Shown here in pieces: positions 4,862 through 44,179 of a stretch of DNA of 64,000 nt (position 1 is its first letter; every line of letters begins with the position of its first letter). Made by a program: the position numbers and the translations under genes. The stretch lies in the IMG/VR virus record IMGVR_UViG_3300008954_000049, positions 1-64,000 of that record, one strand, 5' to 3'. Under the pieces are notes generated by a model that saw only the letters and a list, made by a program, of their open reading frames with translations, was not told the origin of the DNA and did no database searches. The DNA is from a virus.

Positions 4862-5224
4862 ATGAGCGATGACAGCAAGACAACTCGCGAGATCGCCATC
4901 CCACTCGCCCCCGACGACCAGGGACGGCCCCACCTGCTGCGCATTCGCGGCGACGACTCCGGTCCGAAGGAGGCGTCCCTCGGCGTCCTGATGCCCGCGA
5001 AGGACGGGGTGCCTCTCCCGCCCGGTGCCGACCTCATCCACATGAAGCCCCGCGAAGACAGCCCCGCGTTCGACTGCGAGACGTTGTACGAGGCTCCGGC
5101 CCCCCAGGGCAGCGGCGGCCGGAAGCCGATGTCGGTGTCGCACGAGCAGTTCGCGGCCAACTGGGACCGCATCTTCGGCAAGAAGGACGAGGACAAGCCC
5201 GAGGACGAGCCCGTCCTGCACTGA
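4862..5224 (+). CDS. Hypothetical acidic protein
   Basis: 120 aa, not recognised. It is rich in Asp/Glu/Pro with an acidic C-terminal tail (KKDEDKPEDEPV). A GGGGAGG ribosome site precedes the ATG, and a TAGTCT -10-like box overlaps the stop of the previous gene 14 nt upstream. It lies in the recombination block between a zinc-ribbon protein and another unknown. No signal peptide or membrane segment is seen. Confidence 0.6.
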   Translation: MSDDSKTTREIAIPLAPDDQGRPHLLRIRGDDSGPKEASLGVLMPAKDGVPLPPGADLIHMKPREDSPAFDCETLYEAPAPQGSGGRKPMSVSHEQFAANWDRIFGKKDEDKPEDEPVLH

Positions 5225-27485: not shown

Positions 27486-30400
27486 GTGGCAGTGCCGACC
27501 CACATCGCGATGAGCAGCTCGGCGTCCCTGGCGCTGATGAAGTTCTTGTCGGACCTGGCGAAGCGCCTGGGGGTCGGCAGGCACGTCTACGTCGTGGGCG
27601 GGGCCGTCCGCAACTTCGTCATCCGCCGCCCGATCAAGGACATCGACGTGGTCATCGACTCGGTGGCCCTGCGCGGCAAGGACTCCGACTGGTTCGCCAA
27701 GGAGGTCGCCAAGGCCATCCCCGCGAAGACCCGCATCCAGACCAACGACTACGGCGTCGCCCTGCTGCACATCGTGGGCGACTGGATGCTCGGGGAGGAG
27801 AACCTCCAGGGCGAGGACATCGAGATCGCCAACGCCCGCATCGAGTCCTACACGGACGGCGGGTACAAGCCCACGCACGTCGAGAAGGCGACCATCGAGG
27901 ACGACGCCCGTCGCCGCGAGTTCACCTTCAACTGCATGGCCGGGGACACCCTAATCCCTACTGAGAAGGGCATCCTCCGCATCGACCAGATCGCCTCTCG
28001 TGACGGGGGGGATCATCAGGACATCCGGTTGACCGTGGCGGGGCAGGACGGCCCTTCGACTGCTGTGGGGTGGCAGTACAGCGGCTACGCCCCCACCCTG
28101 CGGGTGACGACTGAGTGGGGTCATTCTTTCTCCTGCACGCCCCACCATCCGGTTCTGGTCCTTCGGGGCCACGACCACGAGTGGGTTCAGGCGGACCAGC
28201 TTGAGGAAGGTGACCTGCTCTGTGTGCCCGTGCGGCAGGTGGCGAGGCGGACGCCCCTTGCTCTCGACCTGCCCGATCCGGTACAGCCCAAGCGTGGGCG
28301 ACTCAAGGATGTCCGCAAGCCTGAGAGGATGACGCCCGAACTGGCGTTCCTGATCGGGTGCATCGTGGCCGAGGGGTCGAACACCCACAAGCGGGTGTCG
28401 TTCAGCAACTCTGATCCAGCCCTCATCTCCCACTACGTCGAGTGCTTCCACGCCACCTTCGGGTTCCAGCCCTCCCGCAACAAGGTGGTCGAGAAGGGGT
28501 CCGTCCGCATCTTGCGTGGGGTGGAGTTTGTCGCCAGCGCAGACGGCTACGACATCTACGCCGACAGCAAGGCCGTGGTCGGATGGCTGGAAGACCTCGG
28601 CCTGTACTGCGGGGGGTCCAAGGACGGCAAGTCAGCCTCCCACCACAAGATCGTCCCGTGGTCCATCCTGCAAGCTGACGAGCGAAGTCAGTGGGCGTTT
28701 CTTGCGGCCTATCTGGAGGGTGACGGCTCGATCCGGCCCGAGACGGGGCGTATCACCTACTGCTCGGCGTCCCCCCATGTTCGCCAGCAGTTGCAGGTGC
28801 TTCTCGGTGCTCACGGCATTTTGAGCAAGGTGAAGGGCAGGTTCGTCTACATCAACGCTGTGGATTCGGCTCTCCTGTGGGAGAAAATCCAACCGTGGAT
28901 GGTCACCAAGGGGTTCGATTACACCCGGCGGGACAACAAAGCCCGCAACCGCTACGGCATCCCCGCAGAGTACATTCGGGGGTTCCTTGCCGGGCGGAAG
29001 CAGGACACCAGCCGGGCCGTCTACGCCACGGACGGGGATGGGTTCAGAACCCTCCCCGATGTCCATGAGCCTGTTCGGAAGGTTCAGCGGCTTCTCCACG
29101 ATGCTCATGCCCGAGGGGGTTTCGACGGGTTCCTGGCGAGCCTCAAGGCCATCAGCCCGGACGAGTTTGCCAAGCTCCAGCGGTTGTTCGACCTCGGTTA
29201 CCAGTACGTCGAGGTCACGTCGGTTGAGGATGCGGGGCAGCAGGACGTATTCGACATCTCGATGGGCGAGGGGGTCGAGCCTGCTTTCGTGGCGAACGGG
29301 GTGGTGGTCCACAACACGCTGATGTGGCGGCTGCAAGACCTGGCGAACGGCCCGGACAAGGCCGAGATCATCGACCTGACCGGGTGCGGGCTCGCCGACC
29401 TGGCGGCGGGCTCGATGAAGTGCCCGTCCAGCCCGGACAAGACCTTCACCGACGACGCGACCCGCATGGTCCGGGCCATCAAGTTCATCGTGAAGTACGG
29501 CTTCAAGCTGACGCCCGACACCGAGGCGGCCATCCGGCGGCACAAGGGCAAGCTCAAGAACATCAAGCCGGGCCACCTGAGCACCATGCTCGTCGATCTC
29601 CTGCGGGAGCCCACTGCGAAGAAGGCTCTGGAGGAGATGCAGCGGCTCGGGCTGCTCGACGAGATCAAGGACATCGCGCAGAGCAACGGGGCGATGGCGA
29701 ACGCCCTGTTCAACGTGGCCGATGAGACGCGCTCGGATGCCCTGTTCGCGATGATGGACATGGGGCTCCCGAGCGGGAAGCGGCTCGGGTTCCTCGACCG
29801 CTACCAGGTCGCCCGCCTGCGGGAGATCGCGGTGGACCTGTCGTTTGACGCCACCGACCAGTTCATCGCGGCCCTCAAGCAGCCCGGCAAGGTGCTGGAC
29901 ATGCGGTCGCTCATCAAGGAGTTCGGGCTCCGGGGCCAGCAGATCGCACAGGTCACCGACCTGGCTCGCCGTCACCTGCTCGACAGTCCGTCCCTCGTGA
30001 CCGACAAGCGGCGGCTGACGCAGCGCGTCAGGCTCGACCTTCAGGGTGGCCGCACGGCGGCGATGGCCCCGACCTGGTTCCCCGATGAGGGCGACCAGGT
30101 GACGAGCATCGAGGCGGGCGACGGGTGGGCCTACATCGGCTTCGACTCCGGCCAGGAGGTCGGCCTGCCGACCGACGAGCGGCGGAGCCAGGGCTGGAAG
30201 GCAGCTCGCACGGCGGCCGTGAAGGGCTCCGGGGCGAAGGTGGGGCTGATGCTCCCGCTGCCGGAGGAGTTGGCCGCGAAGTTCCCGAGCCTCGGCGACG
30301 AGGACGACAGCCCGCCCCACTGCACGCTGCTCTACGTGGGGGACGTGCGCGGGCGAGAGGCCGAGTTCCTGGCAGCCGTGCAGGCCGAGGCCAGCCAGTA

Positions 30401-33400
30401 CCGGCCGATGCGGGCCACCATCCAGCCCCTCGACTACTTCGAGCACCCGGAGAAGGAACGCCGAGTGGCGTACTGCCCGGTGCGGTTCGACGGGTACATG
30501 GACCAGCTTCGAGACGGCATCCGGGTTCGGCTGACCGATGCCGGGTTCGCCCTGAAGGACCGCTCGCTCCTCATCTACAACCCGCACATCACCCTCGCCT
30601 ACCTGGACGGGCTCGACTCGAAGTACGAGGGCCAGGTGCCCACGGGTTCGTGGACGGTCGAGGGCCTGGCGGTGTGGGGGATGGCGAAGCCCGAGACGTA
30701 CCCGCTGTCCCGCACGGCGAAGAAGTTCGAGCTGGAGATCGGCGACCCGCTGTTCACGGGCAAGTACCTCAACAGCCCCGGCCGCATCGAGGGTTTCGGC
30801 GAGAACGAGAAGGGCGACCCCACGGTCATCGTTCGCAAGCGTCCGAAGAAGGACCAGGGCGGGCAGGGGGCCAAGAAGGAGGTCAAGCTCTTCAAGGTCC
30901 GTTACGACAAGGACCAGGCCGCCCGCGACAAGGCGGAGAAGTCCGCTCGTGAGTTCGGCACGGACGAGGCCCGCAAGGAGTACCTGCGGGAGCACCCTGG
31001 AGCTGACCCGAAGAACCACACCGTCACCGACGACGCGCCCGAGGCCGAGGATGACAAGCCGAAGCGCGGGAAGCTGCGGTCGGCCGTCAGCGGTGCAGCG
31101 GCTATCGCGAAGAAGGTCATCAAGCGGAAGGTCGAGCGGGGCAAGGACGTGGCCTCCGGGGTGGCGAAGCTCCTCAAGGGCGACGTGCCAGACCCGAAGG
31201 AGCGTGCCCGCATCGCTCGGCTGCTCATCCGCGAGGTGATGAAGGGCGGCATCAACGCCGCCATGTACGTCGCGATCCCGCCCCCGCCCGGCTACATCTT
31301 CGCGAAGAAGGTGGTCGCCGAGGCCACCAAGCTGCTCGACAAGAAGCTCGAAGCCCGGTTCGGCGTCAGCAAGGTGGGCGGCGAGCTGACCGAGGACGCC
31401 CTCGCGCAGATGGTGCAGGACTCGCTCAACGAGGCTGTGGACGCTGTGGGGCAGTCGAAGGAGGCCAACGCGGCCATCCGGCGGCTGTGCGACCGCTACA
31501 ACCAGGCGACCATGCACCGCGTCGTCCTCGAAGTCGGTGCCGACGACATCACGAAGAGCGTCCCCATCGACTCCCTCGCCCTGCTGTTCAACAGGCAGTT
31601 CGCCGACGCCGTGCAGGCGTCCGGGGAGGAGGAGACGATCGTTCCGTTGCACCTGCTGGCCGAGACGCAGCCGTCTCCGGTGGACAGCACGATGCCGCTC
31701 TACGGCCAGGGCCGCCCGGCCCTGCCTCGCGGTGAAGCGGGCGAGGTCGAGATCCACAGGATGCTCGTGGACCGGGTGGCCTCCCGGTACGCGCAGCGGT
31801 TCGGCCCGAACACCCCGCTGATGGAGCACGAGGGCAACAAGGTCAAGTACCGGGTCAAGTCCGACAGCGACGCCATCCTCGCAGGCGTCTACTACGGCCG
31901 AGCCCGCATCGGCGGGCTCCACGCCAGCGTGATGCGCTACCCCGAGCGGGAGACGTGTGGGCGGGATGTCCTGAAGCTGCTGGCGAAGTACCCGCAGGTC
32001 GAGGACACCAGCCGACCTCGGTGGGTGGCGAGCGACGGGGAGGAGCGGACGAACACCCGAGCCCTCCAGGTCTACAAGGCGTTCATCACCGACGAGAGCA
32101 AGCAGGGCCTCGGCATCGGCAAGGCGATGTACCTGGCCGTCATGGTCGAGTGGTTCAAGAAGGTCGGCCCCTTCCTGTTCATGCCCTACGAGTGCTCCGG
32201 CGGCTCCGGCACCAGCACCGCTGCCGGGCGGGTGTGGAAGAGCCTCGCGCGCGACTTCCCCTCCTCCGGCAACGTCATCGCCGTGCTCCGGGCACCGACC
32301 CTGCCCGGCGGCCTGAAGACGGCGGCCAAGGGCACGAAGAAGAAGGTCAAGAACCAGAAGGGCGAGCAGGTCACGGTCTACGAGTACAGCGAGGGCCAGG
32401 TCCAGCACCGCAACCGCGAGAAGGCGAAGAAGGTCGAGAAGCTCCGGCAGAACCTCGACAAGCTGCGCGGCCAGATCGGCAAGGACCTCAAGTCGAAGGA
32501 CGAGAAGACCCGGCTGTGCGCCCTGGCCGTGGGCCTGATGAACGACACCTACGAGCGGGTCGGCAACCCCGGTTCGGCGAAGGACGGCCACTTCGGGGTC
32601 ACCGGCTGGCAGGCGAAGCACGTCACCCTCTCCGGCGGCAAGGCGACCATCAAGTACGTCGGCAAGTCCGGGGTGAGCCAGACGAAGACCACCAGCGACT
32701 CCGGCCTGGTCAGCGGGCTCCGCGAGGCCCTGAAGGGCAAGTCCGGCACCGACCCCGTGTTCGAGGGCGTCGAGGCAGGCGACGTGAACGCCTACCTGAA
32801 GCCCCACGGCATCACCGCGAAGGACATCCGGGGGCTGCACGCCAACCGCGAAGTCCAGACCCGGCTCAAGGCCATCCGGGGCAAGGGCGGCAAGCTCCCG
32901 ACCGACAAGAAGGAGCGGGAGCAGAAGCTCAAGAAGGAGTTCCAGCAGGCGCTCGATGAGGCGGCCAAGGAGGTGGGGCACGAGGCCAGCACGCTCCGCA
33001 GCCAGTACCTCGTGCCGGGCCTCGAAGACACCTTCATGCGGGACGGCACGGTCAAGGAGAAGCTCGACAAGCAGGGGCGGCTCTCGTGGGGCCTGCGGCA
33101 GATCCTCGGCCGAGCCGACGAGATCGTCGCGGTCTTCGGGTGGGGCGAGTCCGAGATGACCAGCGTGAACGAGGACCCCGAGAAGGACCTCGGCGGCGGG
33201 CTCATCGGCTACGTCTGGCGGACCGGCCGCCAGTGGTACAGCATGGCGAAGGGCTCGATGCAGTCGGAGAAGCGGCGGAACCGGGCGCACGGCGTCTACG
33301 GTCTTCGTCACCCGATGCGCCTCGCGGCCGACAAGGTCGCCATCATCTCCATCTACAACGCCTGGCCGGAGGAGGTGGGCTACACCAGCCCGGACCCGCT

Positions 33401-35903
33401 GGTCAGCCTGGTGGGCTTCGAGGGGCTGATCTCCAGCCTGACCGCCTACGAGTGGGCGCTCATCAACGACATGGACCGGGCCGCCGGGGGTGCCGAGCAC
33501 ATCCTGGTGGCGGACGACGGCACGTTCACCTGGCGGGGCTACCCGGTGATGCCCGACGTGGTCACCGAGCTTCAGGGGGCGGGCTACCTCGGCAACGCAG
33601 AGGACGGGAAGATCGGCCTGTCCTGGCAGCTCATCGGCAAGCGGCAGCTCTACAAGCAGGCCACCCGTCGCCTGGCCGCCAGGTGGTTCGTCGAGGGGGC
33701 GTCTCCCCGCCTGGTCTGGCGGGCTCCGCGAGGTTCCGACCCGTGGAAGCTGGCACAGAAGGCCGGGATCAACATCTTGTCGCACATGGACTTCGTGGCG
33801 GGGTACGAGGCCGGGGGCAAGCTCGTGGCTGCCTTGTTCGACTCGTCGGATTCGGGTGACCAGGAGTGCTACGCCTTCGACATCGTCGTGGACCCGGATG
33901 GCTGGCAGCGAAGGGGGCTCGGAGGGAAGCTGATGGACATCGCCATCAGCCAGTACGACGACCTGGTCGAGCCGTTCCCCGACATCCAGTTCTGCCTCGA
34001 TGCGGTGAACCCGCACGCGGTTCGGATGCTCAAGCAGCGAGGGTTCGTGGAGACAGGTCGGGAGCAGGGGCACACCCTGATGACCCGGCGGGCCACGAAG
34101 TCGAAGGCCGAGAAGGAAGAGGAGGAGGTCGAGCGCCTCAACCGCCGCAACCCCACGAAGAAGCCCCCGCGTCGCGATCTCCGCCGGAACCGGATGAAGG
34201 AGGACGACCCGGACATCGAGGGCTTCGGGGCGGACGGCGACCGGGACCTGAGCAACAACTACAAGAAGCGGGCGACCCTGGCCGCCAACCGCGTCGCTCT
34301 CCGCTGGCTGATGGCCGAGGGCGAGCCGAGCCAGAAGCGCAAGCCCGGCGACGTGTGGCCGTCCGACGACGGCACCTGGAACGCGATGAACGCGAAGGGC
34401 CAGGTGCGCAACGACTTCGGCAAGGACAAGGACTCGAAGGCGAAGGCCGAGGCCTACGCGAAGGGCGACGCCGACTCCCCGGAGGAGGCCGAGGAAGCCG
34501 TGGCCGAGAAGGCCAAGGAGGACGAGGCCAAGAAGAAGGAGCAGGCGAAGGCCGACAAGGAGAAGTTCACGGCCGAGATCACCGACCTGGCCGAGAAGCT
34601 CTACGGGGACAAGGTCATCACGGAGGAGACGGCTCTGCTGCTCATGGAGAAGGCCGACTCGGCCGAGTTCCATGCGGCGTACAAGGCGGAGATGAAGCAG
34701 CTCCGCGAGCTGTTCGACGACTTCGGCGTGACGGTGTCGGCGATGAAGGACATCGCGAAGGACCCCTTCAAGGGCGTGGACGGGGACGACATCGACGAGC
34801 TGGCCGAGGCCGTGGTCCAGGCGAAGGCCCAGGAGGCCCTGCTGCTCGACCCCACCAACGTCGGCGGCCAGCCCCTCTCCTCCGAGCAGCTCGACGATGA
34901 CGCCCGGACCGAACGGGCGATGCAGGCGATGAAGCTCTACCGGCGGGTGAGCCCGGACCAGCGAAGGCAGGTGGCCGAGGACGCGGCGGCGAAGCTCGGT
35001 GACTTCGAGAAGGGCAGCCCCGAGCACGACGAGCTGAACGCGATCATCGACGGCATCCACGCGGCGGCGGTGCTCAACGACGAGGACTTCGACGCGAAGC
35101 ACCCGGACGGCCGCCTGGTGCGGGAGCCGCTCAACAGCAAGCTCAAGCTGGTGCTCAAGCAGATGGTCAAGCAGGGCAACGCCGAGGTGTTGTTCCTGAA
35201 GGACTCGTCGAAGGTCTACGCGGCGGAGGGCCGGGCGGCTGTCCGCGACGCGATGGGCAAGCTCGACGACGAGGGCCTGGCGGCGATCTCCGAGGGCACC
35301 TCGTGGGAGCCGCTGGTCAAGGCGCTCGCCGACAACCCGGACATGGCTCCCGAGGTGCAGGAGTACCTGCGGGCCATGATCCGCGACATGGGCGTGATGC
35401 ACATGACCACCGTGCAGGGCGTCGCGGCGGCCATCACCAGGAAGAAGCGGGACCCCGCCAACCTCCCCGAGCTGTTCGACCAGACGGCGGACGAGGTGGA
35501 GGACAAGACCCGCGAGGCCGTGGATTCGGCGGTCGATGAGGCCCTCCAGGCGTGCCTGGAGGAGGGCAAGACGCAGGCCGAGTGCATGAAGCGGTCGCGG
35601 GAAGCTGTGGTCCGGGCACAGGCCGAGGCGACGGCCGACGCCATCGACGACATGGACGTGGAGCCCGACGCGCAGGACACGGCGGTTGCAGTGCTGCGGG
35701 CCGTGGCCGGTGGGGCAGACCTCTCGCTGCTGGACGACCCTTCAGTGCGACCGGAGCGGTCGCCCGAGGAGCGGAAGCGGGACTTTCTCGAAAATGTGAA
35801 GGACCCCGCCGAGCGAAAAAGAATCGAGCAGATGTCGCCTGATGAGTTCACGGCGATGGAAAAAGCGGTTCTTTCGGAGGACGAGCAAGACCTGGTGGCC
35901 TGA
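27486..35903 (+). CDS. 2805-aa multi-enzyme virion-region protein with intein
   Basis: GTG start after GTAGGAGC. Domains in order: (1) Cca/PcnB-type nucleotidyltransferase, VVGGAVRNF with KDIDVVID, resuming after the intein to about residue 860. (2) A 461-aa intein at 150-610. (3) A 2H phosphoesterase with HCTL near 945 and HITL near 1034. (4) A GNAT fold, about 1425-1600 (KQGLGIGKAM). (5) A topoisomerase IB-like domain, about 1620-1860, with R1676, K1727, R1782, H1832 and Y1841. (6) A second GNAT, about 2095-2208 (WQRRGLGGKLM). (7) A 590-residue charged helical tail. R-(V/L)-A-x-R-(Y/W) motifs lie at domain borders near 1427, 2061 and 2265. It lies between portal and prohead protease, so packaging into the capsid and cleavage into separate enzymes is plausible but inferred. 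Confidence 0.85.
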   Translation: MAVPTHIAMSSSASLALMKFLSDLAKRLGVGRHVYVVGGAVRNFVIRRPIKDIDVVIDSVALRGKDSDWFAKEVAKAIPAKTRIQTNDYGVALLHIVGDWMLGEENLQGEDIEIANARIESYTDGGYKPTHVEKATIEDDARRREFTFNCMAGDTLIPTEKGILRIDQIASRDGGDHQDIRLTVAGQDGPSTAVGWQYSGYAPTLRVTTEWGHSFSCTPHHPVLVLRGHDHEWVQADQLEEGDLLCVPVRQVARRTPLALDLPDPVQPKRGRLKDVRKPERMTPELAFLIGCIVAEGSNTHKRVSFSNSDPALISHYVECFHATFGFQPSRNKVVEKGSVRILRGVEFVASADGYDIYADSKAVVGWLEDLGLYCGGSKDGKSASHHKIVPWSILQADERSQWAFLAAYLEGDGSIRPETGRITYCSASPHVRQQLQVLLGAHGILSKVKGRFVYINAVDSALLWEKIQPWMVTKGFDYTRRDNKARNRYGIPAEYIRGFLAGRKQDTSRAVYATDGDGFRTLPDVHEPVRKVQRLLHDAHARGGFDGFLASLKAISPDEFAKLQRLFDLGYQYVEVTSVEDAGQQDVFDISMGEGVEPAFVANGVVVHNTLMWRLQDLANGPDKAEIIDLTGCGLADLAAGSMKCPSSPDKTFTDDATRMVRAIKFIVKYGFKLTPDTEAAIRRHKGKLKNIKPGHLSTMLVDLLREPTAKKALEEMQRLGLLDEIKDIAQSNGAMANALFNVADETRSDALFAMMDMGLPSGKRLGFLDRYQVARLREIAVDLSFDATDQFIAALKQPGKVLDMRSLIKEFGLRGQQIAQVTDLARRHLLDSPSLVTDKRRLTQRVRLDLQGGRTAAMAPTWFPDEGDQVTSIEAGDGWAYIGFDSGQEVGLPTDERRSQGWKAARTAAVKGSGAKVGLMLPLPEELAAKFPSLGDEDDSPPHCTLLYVGDVRGREAEFLAAVQAEASQYRPMRATIQPLDYFEHPEKERRVAYCPVRFDGYMDQLRDGIRVRLTDAGFALKDRSLLIYNPHITLAYLDGLDSKYEGQVPTGSWTVEGLAVWGMAKPETYPLSRTAKKFELEIGDPLFTGKYLNSPGRIEGFGENEKGDPTVIVRKRPKKDQGGQGAKKEVKLFKVRYDKDQAARDKAEKSAREFGTDEARKEYLREHPGADPKNHTVTDDAPEAEDDKPKRGKLRSAVSGAAAIAKKVIKRKVERGKDVASGVAKLLKGDVPDPKERARIARLLIREVMKGGINAAMYVAIPPPPGYIFAKKVVAEATKLLDKKLEARFGVSKVGGELTEDALAQMVQDSLNEAVDAVGQSKEANAAIRRLCDRYNQATMHRVVLEVGADDITKSVPIDSLALLFNRQFADAVQASGEEETIVPLHLLAETQPSPVDSTMPLYGQGRPALPRGEAGEVEIHRMLVDRVASRYAQRFGPNTPLMEHEGNKVKYRVKSDSDAILAGVYYGRARIGGLHASVMRYPERETCGRDVLKLLAKYPQVEDTSRPRWVASDGEERTNTRALQVYKAFITDESKQGLGIGKAMYLAVMVEWFKKVGPFLFMPYECSGGSGTSTAAGRVWKSLARDFPSSGNVIAVLRAPTLPGGLKTAAKGTKKKVKNQKGEQVTVYEYSEGQVQHRNREKAKKVEKLRQNLDKLRGQIGKDLKSKDEKTRLCALAVGLMNDTYERVGNPGSAKDGHFGVTGWQAKHVTLSGGKATIKYVGKSGVSQTKTTSDSGLVSGLREALKGKSGTDPVFEGVEAGDVNAYLKPHGITAKDIRGLHANREVQTRLKAIRGKGGKLPTDKKEREQKLKKEFQQALDEAAKEVGHEASTLRSQYLVPGLEDTFMRDGTVKEKLDKQGRLSWGLRQILGRADEIVAVFGWGESEMTSVNEDPEKDLGGGLIGYVWRTGRQWYSMAKGSMQSEKRRNRAHGVYGLRHPMRLAADKVAIISIYNAWPEEVGYTSPDPLVSLVGFEGLISSLTAYEWALINDMDRAAGGAEHILVADDGTFTWRGYPVMPDVVTELQGAGYLGNAEDGKIGLSWQLIGKRQLYKQATRRLAARWFVEGASPRLVWRAPRGSDPWKLAQKAGINILSHMDFVAGYEAGGKLVAALFDSSDSGDQECYAFDIVVDPDGWQRRGLGGKLMDIAISQYDDLVEPFPDIQFCLDAVNPHAVRMLKQRGFVETGREQGHTLMTRRATKSKAEKEEEEVERLNRRNPTKKPPRRDLRRNRMKEDDPDIEGFGADGDRDLSNNYKKRATLAANRVALRWLMAEGEPSQKRKPGDVWPSDDGTWNAMNAKGQVRNDFGKDKDSKAKAEAYAKGDADSPEEAEEAVAEKAKEDEAKKKEQAKADKEKFTAEITDLAEKLYGDKVITEETALLLMEKADSAEFHAAYKAEMKQLRELFDDFGVTVSAMKDIAKDPFKGVDGDDIDELAEAVVQAKAQEALLLDPTNVGGQPLSSEQLDDDARTERAMQAMKLYRRVSPDQRRQVAEDAAAKLGDFEKGSPEHDELNAIIDGIHAAAVLNDEDFDAKHPDGRLVREPLNSKLKLVLKQMVKQGNAEVLFLKDSSKVYAAEGRAAVRDAMGKLDDEGLAAISEGTSWEPLVKALADNPDMAPEVQEYLRAMIRDMGVMHMTTVQGVAAAITRKKRDPANLPELFDQTADEVEDKTREAVDSAVDEALQACLEEGKTQAECMKRSREAVVRAQAEATADAIDDMDVEPDAQDTAVAVLRAVAGGADLSLLDDPSVRPERSPEERKRDFLENVKDPAERKRIEQMSPDEFTAMEKAVLSEDEQDLVA
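27933..29315 (+). other. Intein with LAGLIDADG homing endonuclease
   Basis: 461 residues in frame. It starts with Cys (CMAGDTLIPTEKG) and ends VVVHN, followed by Thr as the +1 residue. Splicing block B-like TPHHPVLV is present, and two LAGLIDADG motifs occur (LIGCIVAEGS near 288, LAAYLEGDGS near 405). It interrupts the conserved RRREFTFN|TL motif of the nucleotidyltransferase, the typical active-site placement of inteins. Its DNA uses more A/T at third codon positions than the flanks, which suggests later acquisition. Splicing joins N149 to T611. Confidence 0.92.
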
Positions 35904-39147: not shown

Positions 39148-40661
39148 GCACTCGTCAGCGCATGACGTGGGCGGCCCTCGACCGTGAGGCGGCTGCTCCC
39201 CCCGCAACCCCCGGCTACGGAGTCGAGGACCAGGACCACCCGGCCCACACCCAGGACGATCCGGGCAAGGACGACTACAACATCGGCGGCCCCTCGGAGT
39301 TCGCCGAGGACGTTCACCCGCCGCCCTACGGGGACAGCGGCCCGCCCGCGACGCCCGGCTACGGGGTCGAGGACCAGGACCACCCGGCCCACACCGGGCA
39401 GGTCGGCCGCCAGGCCAACCTGATGCAGCTCGTCCGGCGCAAGTCGGCCAAGTGCCTCGTGCTCGCGCGGGCCACGCTCGGCAAGACCGCGTCGTGGGAC
39501 GACATCGAGAACCAGGCGTTCGGCTACATGAGCATGGACGACACCGCCCTGGAGGCCTCGGTCGAGCGCCTCGGCGGCGACTTCCTCTCGATGGAGGAGG
39601 AGCTGCTCGGGATGTTCCCCGAGGACGAGGCCCCGGCCCTGGACCCGATGGAGGCCCGCCTGGCCGCGATGGAGGCCGAGCTGAAGGCGCTCAAGAGCGC
39701 CGACCAGAACGACCCCGGCGGCGAGACCCTCGGCACCTCCGGCAAGTCCGAGCAGGAGGCGAAGAAGGAAGAGGCGGCCGTCTCGGACAAGGCCGCGAAC
39801 CCCGTCATGGCGATGTTCGACGCCTTCGACCTGGACGGCGACGGCTTCGTGACGGCCGAGGACTGGACCGGCCCCCGCGCCATGTTCGCGTCCCTCGACA
39901 CCGACAACGACGGCATCATCGCTCGGGCCGAGGTCCTCGCGGGCTGCGAGAAGCTCGACGGCAAGATGCAGGAGATGTGCGAGGCCAAGAAGAAGGAGGG
40001 CTCCGAGGACGAGTCCGACGACGACGAGGGCTCCGACAAGGAGGCGTCCGACAAGACCGCCTTCGGCCACGTCGCCGAGTTCGACGACGACGAGCTGGAG
40101 ATGCTCCAGGCCATGCAGTACGGCATGGACGACGAGCTGGTGGACGACGGCGAGATCGCCTGCGGCGACGTGATGGCCTCGAAGAACGCCTCCGACGACG
40201 AGGACGACGAGGAGGGCTCCGACAAGGAGGCCGCCAAGAAGTCCGAGGACGACGAGGACGAGGGCTCCGACGACGAGGGCGGTGACGACGAGGGCTCCGA
40301 CGACGAGGGCGGCGACGACGACGAGGACGAGGGCGGCTCCGACAAGGAGGCCTCCGACGCCGAGTTCTTCGCCACCGGCTTCGACCCGATGGGCCTCTCG
40401 GACGGGACCGAGCTGACGGCCGCCGACAAGGCCGCCTTCAACGAGGTCTTCGGCTCCGAGGACGAGGACGAGGGCGACGACGAGGGCAGCGACAAGGAGG
40501 CCAGCCTCGCGGCCATCCTCCAGCCGCAGGCCCGCAAGGCGTCCAAGGGCGTCAAGTCGGTCGGCCAGGTCCCGAAGGTCGCCTCCAGCGGCGGCAACGA
40601 GATCGCCGAGCTGTCGAACCTCTGGGCCTCCGACCCGGACGTGAGCGGCAGCTTCTCCTGA
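39144..40661 (+). CDS. Acidic EF-hand scaffold candidate
   Basis: 505 aa, start at 39144 overlapping the protease stop. The N-terminus holds two copies of an 18-residue unit (PATPGYGVEDQDHPAHT core). Two EF-hand loops follow: DLDGDGFVTAED and DTDNDGIIARAE. The rest is extremely acidic with four copies of GSDKEA(S/A). The last 40 residues are basic and could bind capsid. Position between protease and capsid, acidity and repeats fit a scaffolding protein removed by proteolysis. Calcium-controlled folding is suggested by the EF-hands. Confidence 0.65.
   Translation: MSTRQRMTWAALDREAAAPPATPGYGVEDQDHPAHTQDDPGKDDYNIGGPSEFAEDVHPPPYGDSGPPATPGYGVEDQDHPAHTGQVGRQANLMQLVRRKSAKCLVLARATLGKTASWDDIENQAFGYMSMDDTALEASVERLGGDFLSMEEELLGMFPEDEAPALDPMEARLAAMEAELKALKSADQNDPGGETLGTSGKSEQEAKKEEAAVSDKAANPVMAMFDAFDLDGDGFVTAEDWTGPRAMFASLDTDNDGIIARAEVLAGCEKLDGKMQEMCEAKKKEGSEDESDDDEGSDKEASDKTAFGHVAEFDDDELEMLQAMQYGMDDELVDDGEIACGDVMASKNASDDEDDEEGSDKEAAKKSEDDEDEGSDDEGGDDEGSDDEGGDDDEDEGGSDKEASDAEFFATGFDPMGLSDGTELTAADKAAFNEVFGSEDEDEGDDEGSDKEASLAAILQPQARKASKGVKSVGQVPKVASSGGNEIAELSNLWASDPDVSGSFS
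39199..39251 (+). repeat. 18-aa coding repeat, copy 1
   Basis: Encodes PPATPGYGVEDQDHPAHT. A second copy lies exactly 144 nt downstream (39343-39395) with the same protein sequence and synonymous changes, so it is selected at protein level. Confidence 0.8.
39343..39395 (+). repeat. 18-aa coding repeat, copy 2
   Basis: Second copy of the scaffold N-terminal unit, in the same frame as copy 1. Confidence 0.8.
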
Positions 40662-41587: not shown

Positions 41588-42460
41588 ATGAACGCCACCA
41601 ACGCCGTCAAGCAGAAGATCATCGGCGAGTACATCAAGACCCCGCAGGGTCGCGCCAAGCTCGCCGCGTCGATGACGCAGCCCCTCCGCACGCGGCGGGA
41701 CTACGCCGCCGTGGGCCGCAAGACCTTCCTGGTCGAGCAGCTCCCCGACGGTGCGCTGCCCATCTACGACAAGGACCCCGACATCACCGCCTACGTGGTC
41801 GGCGAAGAGGGCCAGAACATCCTCGCGGTCACCAAGCCGCGCCGGGTGATCTTCCCGCTCTTCGAGATCGCGTCGAACCCGGAGATCCCGCTCACCCAGA
41901 TCAAGGAGCGCCGCTTCGACCTGATCGAGCGGTCCCAGGACCTCGGCCGGGCGCAGATCCAGGCCGCCGAGGACGAGCGCGTCTTCGCCGTCCTCGACGC
42001 CGTCGCCACGGCGGGCTTCGACTCCCTGCCGGGTCAGCTCAACGCCGACATCCCCGTCATCGCCCCGATCTCGGGCGCGGTGCTGGCGGACGCCTTCGCG
42101 CTCATCGAGCGGCACGACCTCCGGGTCGCCCGCATCTACATGAACGCGCGGGACTACGCGGACATCCGCAAGTTCGGCCGCGACATCCTCGACATCGAGT
42201 CGCAGGCGACGCTCCTGAAGACGGGCCTCCAGGGGGTCATCTACGGGGCCAACGTCGTCACCAGCCGCCTCGTGCCCAACGGCACGGTGTACCTGTGCTG
42301 CGAGCCGGAGATGTTCGGCCGCATCCCGGTCCGCACCGAGCTGACGGTCCTGTCGGCCGACGACCCGAAGCGCCGGATGATCGGCTTCTCGATCTTCGAG
42401 AACCTGGGCCTCGGGGCCTACAACCCGCGCGGCCTCGCCCGCCTGACCGTCACCCGCTAG
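41588..42460 (+). CDS. Major capsid protein (HK97-like)
   Basis: 290 aa. After a short helical N-terminus, the sequence shows HK97-type features: an E-loop region (GALPIYDKDPDITAYVV), a spine helix (RFDLIERSQDLGRAQIQAAEDERVFAVLDAV), the P-domain/A-domain (YMNARDYADIRKFG) and a terminal strand (TELTVLSADDPKRRMIGFSIFENLG). A long intrinsic terminator follows, as usual for a highly expressed capsid gene. It shows no long N-terminal delta domain, consistent with a separate scaffold. Confidence 0.82.
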   Translation: MNATNAVKQKIIGEYIKTPQGRAKLAASMTQPLRTRRDYAAVGRKTFLVEQLPDGALPIYDKDPDITAYVVGEEGQNILAVTKPRRVIFPLFEIASNPEIPLTQIKERRFDLIERSQDLGRAQIQAAEDERVFAVLDAVATAGFDSLPGQLNADIPVIAPISGAVLADAFALIERHDLRVARIYMNARDYADIRKFGRDILDIESQATLLKTGLQGVIYGANVVTSRLVPNGTVYLCCEPEMFGRIPVRTELTVLSADDPKRRMIGFSIFENLGLGAYNPRGLARLTVTR

Positions 42461-42518
42461 TAGCGGGCCGGTGAGGAGCGGTCGGTGACCCGGCCGCTCC
42501 TTCGGGACACCACTCGAC

Positions 42519-42557
42519 GCACCCCCGGCGGCTTCGGCCTCCGGGGGTGCTGTCGTT
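42519..42557 (+). terminator. Intrinsic terminator after the capsid gene
   Basis: GCACCCCCGG (42519-42528) pairs perfectly with CCGGGGGTGC (42541-42550); the inner part adds GGC-TTCG-GCC. It is followed by TGTCGTTTC. Confidence 0.8.
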
Positions 42558-42745
42558 TCGGCTCCCCACAACGACGGACACCCCGGCAGGGGTACTACCG
42601 GGGGCCGTCAGACGGAATGGATTCTGTCGCATCGGTCGTCACTTCATCCGGCCTCCTTCGTCGTGGCGGCAGGAGGGGAAGGGCTGTCGGGGCCTCGCTT
42701 CCTGCCTTCACCATCACCACCGACCAGCGGCTTTTTCTGAGCCCT

Positions 42746-42758
42746 CGAACTTTTTTCG
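42746..42758 (+). repeat. 13-nt inverted repeat, left arm
   Basis: CGAACTTTTTTCG. Its exact reverse complement is at 43036-43048. It lies inside a local palindrome (CTGAGCCC 42737-42744 with GGGCTCAG 42765-42772). Confidence 0.65.
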
Positions 42759-42822
42759 ATCTCGGGGCTCAGCCGCCGGAGCAGGCCAGTAGTAGGGGCA
42801 GAACGGATTGGAGAACCCGAGC

Positions 42823-42876
42823 ATGACGACGCGCACGATCACCTACCTGCTGGCCGCCCTCATCATCGACAACTGA
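42823..42876 (+). CDS. Possible 17-aa leader peptide
   Basis: An ATG reads MTTRTITYLLAALIIDN and stops 10 nt before the next start. The hydrophobic core resembles a leader or tiny membrane peptide. A GGAGAA lies 9-12 nt upstream. It is too short to be sure. Confidence 0.25.
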   Translation: MTTRTITYLLAALIIDN

Positions 42877-42885
42877 TTGGACGGG

Positions 42886-43035
42886 ATGATGCGCTTCGGG
42901 AAGATCAAGACCCTGGCCCACCGGATGCTCCGGGGAGAGCCGATCCCCTTCTTCAGCGACAACCGGATCAACCGGGCCATCGAGGCACACGCTGACCGAA
43001 TCCTCCGGGCACGCACCCGCCGAACTCGTCGCTGA
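42886..43035 (+). CDS. Small basic protein
   Basis: 49 aa starting at tandem ATGs (42886/42889) with a weak GGACGGG site. It has a helical body (NRINRAIEAHADRILRA) and an Arg-rich tail (RARTRRTRR). It resembles no known family. It stands alone in the gap, between the two arms of a 13-nt inverted repeat, and stops 22 nt before the ncRNA promoter. It may bind nucleic acid. Confidence 0.45.
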   Translation: MMRFGKIKTLAHRMLRGEPIPFFSDNRINRAIEAHADRILRARTRRTRR

Positions 43036-43048
43036 CGAAAAAAGTTCG
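43036..43048 (+). repeat. 13-nt inverted repeat, right arm
   Basis: CGAAAAAAGTTCG, exact reverse complement of 42746-42758, just after the small basic ORF. It could pair with the left arm in RNA or mark element ends. Confidence 0.65.
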
Positions 43049-43056
43049 GGAACCGC

Positions 43057-43085
43057 TTGACCCCCGAGTCCAGGTCGTTTAGAAC
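43057..43085 (+). promoter_or_regulatory. Consensus promoter before the ncRNA
   Basis: TTGACC (43057-43062) and TAGAAC (43080-43085) with a 17-nt spacer. It is one of the best sigma70-type promoters in the window. Transcription would start near 43092. Confidence 0.65.
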
Positions 43086-43091
43086 CTCCCT

Positions 43092-43565
43092 CGCTGCACG
43101 GGGAGACCCGAGCGGCACGGTTCGAGGCAGACGGGACTAGGCACCGCAGTCACCCCGAACCGGAAGCCAGGACAGCCATCCTGGCGCGCTCCAAAGGGGA
43201 AACCCGGCGGGGCCTCTACCGCAGGCCGACCCCGTGGCAAGGGGAGCAGGCGGCAGAGTAGGGGGTCAGTTAGCCGCTGGCCTCAACGATGGGACCCCTC
43301 TTGAACAAGGGGTCAGGGTAGAGGGGTTCAAGCCCAATACCTGGCTGGAGGAAACTCCGGTCGAAACCCACGCCGAGGAAGAAGGGACCATCACCTTCAC
43401 CTGACTCGGTCTGGCGGAAGCAGCCCGCGAGAGCGGTTGCGGAAGTCGGCCTCCCAAGGGAGGACGGGGACAACATCGGGAACGGCCCCACAAGGCCGCA
43501 GCCGGTGACAGTCATCTGCGGACCCACCGTAGCCCCTTCGGGAGGCCGGTGGGTTTCGTCGTTTA
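43092..43565 (+). ncRNA. Candidate structured non-coding RNA (about 470 nt)
   Basis: The unit runs from a TTGACC-17-TAGAAC promoter to an intrinsic terminator. It has no ORF with a ribosome site. Many compact hairpins are visible: GCCAGGA/TCCTGGC (43166-43185), GACCCCT/AGGGGTC (near 43290-43312), CTGGAG-GAAA-CTCCGG (near 43343), CCGC-GAGA-GCGG (near 43430), GGG-GAAA-CCC (near 43197) and CCTCCC/GGGAGG (near 43450). GNRA tetraloops recur. No match to tmRNA, RNase P RNA or tRNA was convincing. Ends are estimates. Confidence 0.6.
43522..43564 (+). terminator. Terminator of the ncRNA unit
   Basis: ACCCACCG (43522-43529) pairs with CGGTGGGT (43547-43554), an inner CCC-TTCG-GG hairpin lies in the loop, and TTCGTCGTTT follows. 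It ends 13 nt before the convergent nucleotidase stop. Confidence 0.8.
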
Positions 43566-43576
43566 AGACGCCCCGA

Positions 43577-44179
43577 TCAGCGTGCGCTCTCCTTGATGGC
43601 CGCGATGCGCTCCAGCAGCAGGGGAAGCTCCGTGGGCCAGTCCCCGGTGAGCCGGATGATGTTCGGGTGTAGGTGCTCGGGGTACTGGTCGAGCGTGTTC
43701 CAGGGCCAGGCCGGGACCACCAGCAGGCCACGAGGCCGCCACTCCAACCAGCGGATGCCGTAGGCGGGCCAGTCGTCTACCAGCACCTTGCCGTAGACCA
43801 GGCCCTTGTCCTCGGTGATGGTCACCTGCGCGACGCGGGCTTCACGATGATGGTCCTGACCAAGGGGCCGTACCGCAGCACGCAGGCGTGGACCGAGAAG
43901 GTCGAGTGGTGCCGCGAGCACATCCCCGACGCGCAGGTGGGTGTAGGCCGCCATCCCGATGCCGTACACGGGCAGGTTCCGCCACCAGCCCGGCTGGGTC
44001 TTGGTGAGCTTCTTGCGGGCCTTCAGCCAGAGCGGCTCGTCGGAGTCGTCCGGTCCGGCGGCGATCACCTGCTCGCCGGGGCTGGTGAGGGTGGCGAGGT
44101 CCCGTCGCATGGCTCCGTCGAAGTCGGCGACGGTGCCGTCCATGTCGATGAGGGCGACGAGTTCGTGGGGCTTGGTCAT
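43577..44179 (-). CDS. HAD-type 5'(3')-nucleotidase with inverted internal segment
   Basis: 200 aa on the - strand; ATG at 44179 with AGGAGAACACC upstream. Motif I is LIDMDGT (D12, D14) and the late motif is KVLVDDWPAYG (D135, D136), as in phage deoxynucleotidases. Residues 81-119 (HLRVGDVLAAPLDLLG...) do not fit the family. The opposite strand of this same stretch encodes HLRDAGFTMMVLTKGPYR and EKVEWCREHIPDAQV, the missing motif II region. The segment is inverted between 10-bp repeats, keeping the frame open. As written the enzyme lacks motif II and is probably inactive. It is either an OFF state, a mutation or an assembly error. Confidence 0.8.
   Translation of the reverse strand: MTKPHELVALIDMDGTVADFDGAMRRDLATLTSPGEQVIAAGPDDSDEPLWLKARKKLTKTQPGWWRNLPVYGIGMAAYTHLRVGDVLAAPLDLLGPRLRAAVRPLGQDHHREARVAQVTITEDKGLVYGKVLVDDWPAYGIRWLEWRPRGLLVVPAWPWNTLDQYPEHLHPNIIRLTGDWPTELPLLLERIAAIKESAR
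43823..43832. repeat. Inverted repeat, left arm of the flipped segment
   Basis: CACCTGCGCG, with looser similarity for several more bases (CG, GGG). It pairs with 43930-43939 and marks one end of the 117-bp inverted segment. Confidence 0.85.
43930..43939. repeat. Inverted repeat, right arm of the flipped segment
   Basis: CGCGCAGGTG, reverse complement of 43823-43832. Both repeats are coding in either orientation (HLR at one end, AQV at the other). Confidence 0.85.

Follow-up and report, generated by a model that had tools for sequence, protein, structure and literature searches.

A gene in this viral genome contains a 117-bp segment that is inverted relative to its homologs, and the reading frame passes through it unbroken. 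The DNA analyzed here (the window) is a stretch of 64,000 nucleotides, part of a 64,702-base IMG/VR virus record. The gene lies on its minus strand (43577–44179) and encodes a 200-aa protein like the NT5C 5′(3′)-deoxyribonucleotidases of the HAD superfamily, an assignment based on the ORF, the PF06941 match of the flipped form, 30 relatives and the predicted fold of one relative. The segment (43823–43939) comprises 39 codons, residues 81–119, and was delimited by reading both strands, by comparison with the relatives, by a scan of possible inversions and by G+C content at the three codon positions. We put the probability at about three in four that this is a recent loss-of-function inversion, generated by template switching or by recombination through a hairpin or cruciform, and not a programmed switch.

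Direct inspection of the sequence bears out the arrangement described in the initial annotation. The segment is bounded by perfect 10-bp inverted repeats, CACCTGCGCG (arm 1, 43823–43832, plus strand) and CGCGCAGGTG (arm 2, 43930–43939, plus strand), and 117 bp is the distance between their outer ends. Extended inward, the repeat matches at 14 of 16 positions. In this lineage the arms are ordinary codons, HLR (CAC CTG CGC) and AQV (GCG CAG GTG). Between them, the sense strand encodes a stretch foreign to the family, and the family sequence, HLRDAGFTMMVLTKGPYRSTQAWTEKVEWCREHIPDAQV, is found in codon phase on the opposite strand. The TKGP codons, which include the Thr of motif II, thus lie on the wrong strand (43859–43870, plus strand). 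Outside the segment, motif I (DMDGT, residues 12–16; 44132–44146, minus strand), the motif III region (TEDK, residues 122–125, with K at 125; 43805–43816, minus strand) and motif IV (DD, residues 135–136; 43772–43777, minus strand) are intact.

Judged from sequence comparison, the case for inversion relative to the family is well above chance. Pfam gives no NT5C match for the as-assembled protein, which falls outside PF06941. After flipping the segment in silico, the protein matches NT5C at 2.5e-8, with 34.5 bits against a curated cut-off of 24.8, and motif II is restored in frame, as the initial annotation had proposed. The gene descends from the NT5C family, even though its as-assembled product fails the profile. 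Searches of viral and bacterial contigs yielded 30 relatives (37–59% identity), and flipping the segment raises the tblastn score against every one of them, by 27 to 65 bits. In all 30, the motif II region runs collinear with the remainder of the gene. Using a profile built from the relatives, we also scored every inversion of 30–300 bp within the gene. The top score, +127.7 bits, was obtained by exactly those inversions that break within the 10-bp arms at both ends.

Codon-position G+C provides another line of evidence. In the gene's sense, the values for the segment are 1.0/0.46/0.62, compared to 0.65/0.47/0.95 and 0.66/0.45/0.91 for the flanks; read on the opposite strand, the segment gives 0.62/0.46/1.0. 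This reversal with respect to the flanks indicates that the segment evolved as coding DNA in the opposite orientation. A BLASTN search with the locus returned nothing among named phages, and a second scan match to the junction 20-mer (L008) was set aside, as it encodes no relative.

All 30 relatives are uninverted, and among the 32 sequences compared the inverted form occurs only in the window and in one near-identical record, IMGVR_UViG_3300007512_000012 (110,937 bp). Because all relatives are uninverted, the window's form must be the derived one. The ancestral reading of the segment shows no decay. Of the segment columns that are at least 90% conserved, 12/12 are intact when the segment is flipped, versus 2/12 as assembled, and mean identity to the relatives is 0.49 for the segment, compared to 0.38 and 0.40 for the flanks. 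The undamaged state of the ancestral reading implies either that the inversion is recent or that the segment has been turned back often enough to be maintained. On the sequence data, a recent, one-off inversion seems most likely.

What the inversion does to the protein can be gauged from structural models. Motif II, which we take from established knowledge of HAD enzymes to be the Thr of LTKGP, lies where a core strand ends. LTKGP or a close variant is present in every relative, and in the as-assembled protein the Thr is missing, with T93 replaced by D; motifs I (DxDGT), III (K) and IV (DD) are present. In the AlphaFold2 model of one relative (L018), the corresponding region forms a strand (86–91), a helix (98–111) and a second strand (116–119), with mostly high confidence, and this model resembles solved 5′(3′)-deoxyribonucleotidases (best Foldseek E 1.7e-9). 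A profile search with a relative likewise identifies deoxyribonucleotidase 2i7d, at 2.6e-13. In the as-assembled model, pLDDT falls below 50 at residues 92–116, and most other residues are modelled well. Thus, the uninverted relatives share both family and predicted fold with the NT5C enzymes (PF06941; PDB 2i7d, 2jao, 3bwv), whereas motif II and the surrounding strand-helix-strand are missing from the protein encoded in the window. According to these models, the inversion is an effective deletion of HAD motif II and of the core strand-helix-strand from the product. We expect the as-assembled product to be an enzyme that is inactive and partly misfolded, and the nucleotidase gene is probably dispensable for the phage.

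How might such an inversion arise? By the route that we infer, two 10-bp inverted repeats would have appeared by chance from ordinary codons (HLR and AQV), and during replication inter-strand template switching by DNA polymerase at these arms would have inverted the intervening DNA, once and without later reversal. Recombination via a hairpin or cruciform is an alternative route that would leave the identical trace, indistinguishable from that of template switching. Either way, the product would keep its frame and lose motif II together with the core strand, helix and strand. The inversion in the window is reciprocal, and both of its breakpoints lie within perfect short inverted repeats. Moreover, when the segment is folded in silico as single-stranded DNA, the arms are predicted to pair with each other (z −2.4; 5 of 200 shuffled sequences gave an equally good fold). 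Of the three causes offered in the initial annotation, a template-switch mutation fits best.

There is precedent for such events. In yeast coding genes, the spacer between inverted repeats can be inverted by intermolecular template switching, and only where the arms exceed 9 bp (Abraham and Hazkani-Covo 2021, PMC8604942). Single inverted fragments are also among the types of template-switching event described in great apes (PMC7954356). The window resembles the yeast cases in that the inverted repeats are perfect, the arms are longer than 9 bp, the event is intragenic and the protein is changed. One caveat here is scale: the documented yeast inversions span 2–5 bp and affect a few residues at most, a short range put down partly to selection (PMC8604942), whereas the spacer in this phage gene is 97 bp and the inversion covers 97–117 bp, up to 39 codons, with loss of active-site sequence. 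A second is that one would not quite expect a disabling mutation to be the consensus in both records if the phage needed the gene.

An alternative proposed in the initial annotation is a reversible switch, in which a host enzyme or an unrecognized phage recombinase flips the segment at the 10-bp repeats and so turns the nucleotidase on and off. Several features are compatible with this idea. The inversion is balanced and exact between perfect repeats, the gene is in frame and open both ways, and the uninverted reading is free of damage. In bacteria, intragenic invertons are reversible within a population, and the fim switch works with repeats of 9 bp. Bacterial intragenic invertons, reported by Chanin et al. 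(2024 Nature), resemble our case in being inversions between inverted repeats within a gene. Our case differs from a reversible element in that a single orientation was seen and no recombinase found.

Other data argue against a switch. Perfect 10-bp inverted pairs within 200 bp number 33 in the window, versus ∼25 expected from Markov-1 sequences, so the repeat taken alone is near chance level. Neither are the arms conserved in any of the 30 relatives, in which 1–6 of the 10 homologous positions match. The initial annotation correctly stated that both orientations stay open through the gene, but this is no evidence of design: among codon-phased 117-bp inversions in this genome 97% stay open (55% in any phase), so a two-way open frame is to be expected. 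We therefore discount both the open frame and the repeat as signs of a designed element. Searches for an invertase gene recovered no serine resolvase (PF00239), tyrosine recombinase (PF00589) or IS110/Piv (PF01548) domain in the 64.7-kb record or the 110.9-kb record, both of which may be incomplete. Finally, both available records (2/2) have the segment in the same orientation, and an inner 27-mer that detects either orientation matched no other viral contig. Taken together, these observations make a programmed switch unlikely. We consider similarly doubtful a looser version, an inverton inside the phage gene for a metabolic enzyme that operates at chance 10-bp repeats and has no dedicated phage recombinase, relying on template switching or a host enzyme.

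The initial annotation also raised the possibility of an assembly artefact. An amplification chimera or assembly error, with the true phage gene being uninverted, would account for the wholly undamaged state of the uninverted reading, and the two records may not be independent. With k of at least 21, a de Bruijn assembler can turn a segment around at 10-bp repeats only if reads containing the junctions are supplied. Because the repeats fall short of the k-mer length used in assembly, the graph alone should not be able to invert the segment, and pure assembly error is unlikely. Polymerases do generate chimeras at inverted repeats during strand-displacement amplification; these are common and mainly fold-backs (PMC9484634). 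A fold-back chimera has one junction and an inverted duplication, whereas in the window both junctions are clean and reciprocal. In addition, the second record, which differs from the window at five small sites elsewhere in the 64 kb, agrees with it on the orientation of the segment. We thus regard an artefact of either kind as rather improbable.

A further possibility, that the inversion has recoded the protein and given it a new function, is very improbable, despite a frame open at full length and the retention of motifs I, III and IV, as the new stretch is modelled at pLDDT below 50, occurs in no relative and is simply the antisense of a conserved stretch, and antisense also matches the relatives weakly.

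This locus is a clear natural case in which about a hundred bases of a coding gene were inverted in frame, with breakpoints exactly at short inverted repeats and the ancestral reading still intact. Such inversions are easily missed, because the gene stays open and is annotated as a hypothetical protein. Scanning for codon phase, combined with flipping and rescoring, could reveal further cases in metagenomic genomes. If reads showed both orientations, the gene would instead represent a seldom-sought type of switch in a phage enzyme.

We looked for similar events elsewhere in the genome. No second flipped segment inside a gene was recognized in the 110.9 kb, where part of the candidate signals were inspected singly. 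A flip signal at about 29046–29120 was rejected as a second inversion because it lacks matching repeats and falls within an intein whose codon usage is foreign. The remaining signals genome-wide were mostly near the starts or ends of ORFs, and none resembled a second inversion. The intein lies in an ORF of ∼2,800 aa (27486–35900, plus strand), where a LAGLIDADG intein with a foreign codon signature splits an N-terminal tRNA nucleotidyltransferase/poly(A) polymerase head. This ORF matches PF01743, PF14890, PF14528 and PF12627 in Pfam, as well as phrog_2244.

Among the differences between the two records are two SNPs, clustered codon changes and an in-frame tandem indel of 12 bp. The indel is an extra tandem unit, CGAGGACAAGCC, present in the window at 5188–5199 relative to the 110.9-kb record. 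In the cluster (29937–29948), neighbouring base changes alter the protein between the two records (RGQQIAQV versus RGGQISQV), perhaps as a result of recombination with a related strain.

A gene neighbouring that of the nucleotidase (41588–42460) encodes a phage major head protein (phrog_2522, 3.6e-48). The ∼1.1 kb between the two (42460–43576) lacks any clear gene; short inverted repeats occur there, such as CGAAACCCAC (43362–43371) and GTGGGTTTCG (43549–43558). Elsewhere in the window, a near-repeat of ∼55 bp (39198–39251 and 39341–39395) is 93% identical between its two copies.
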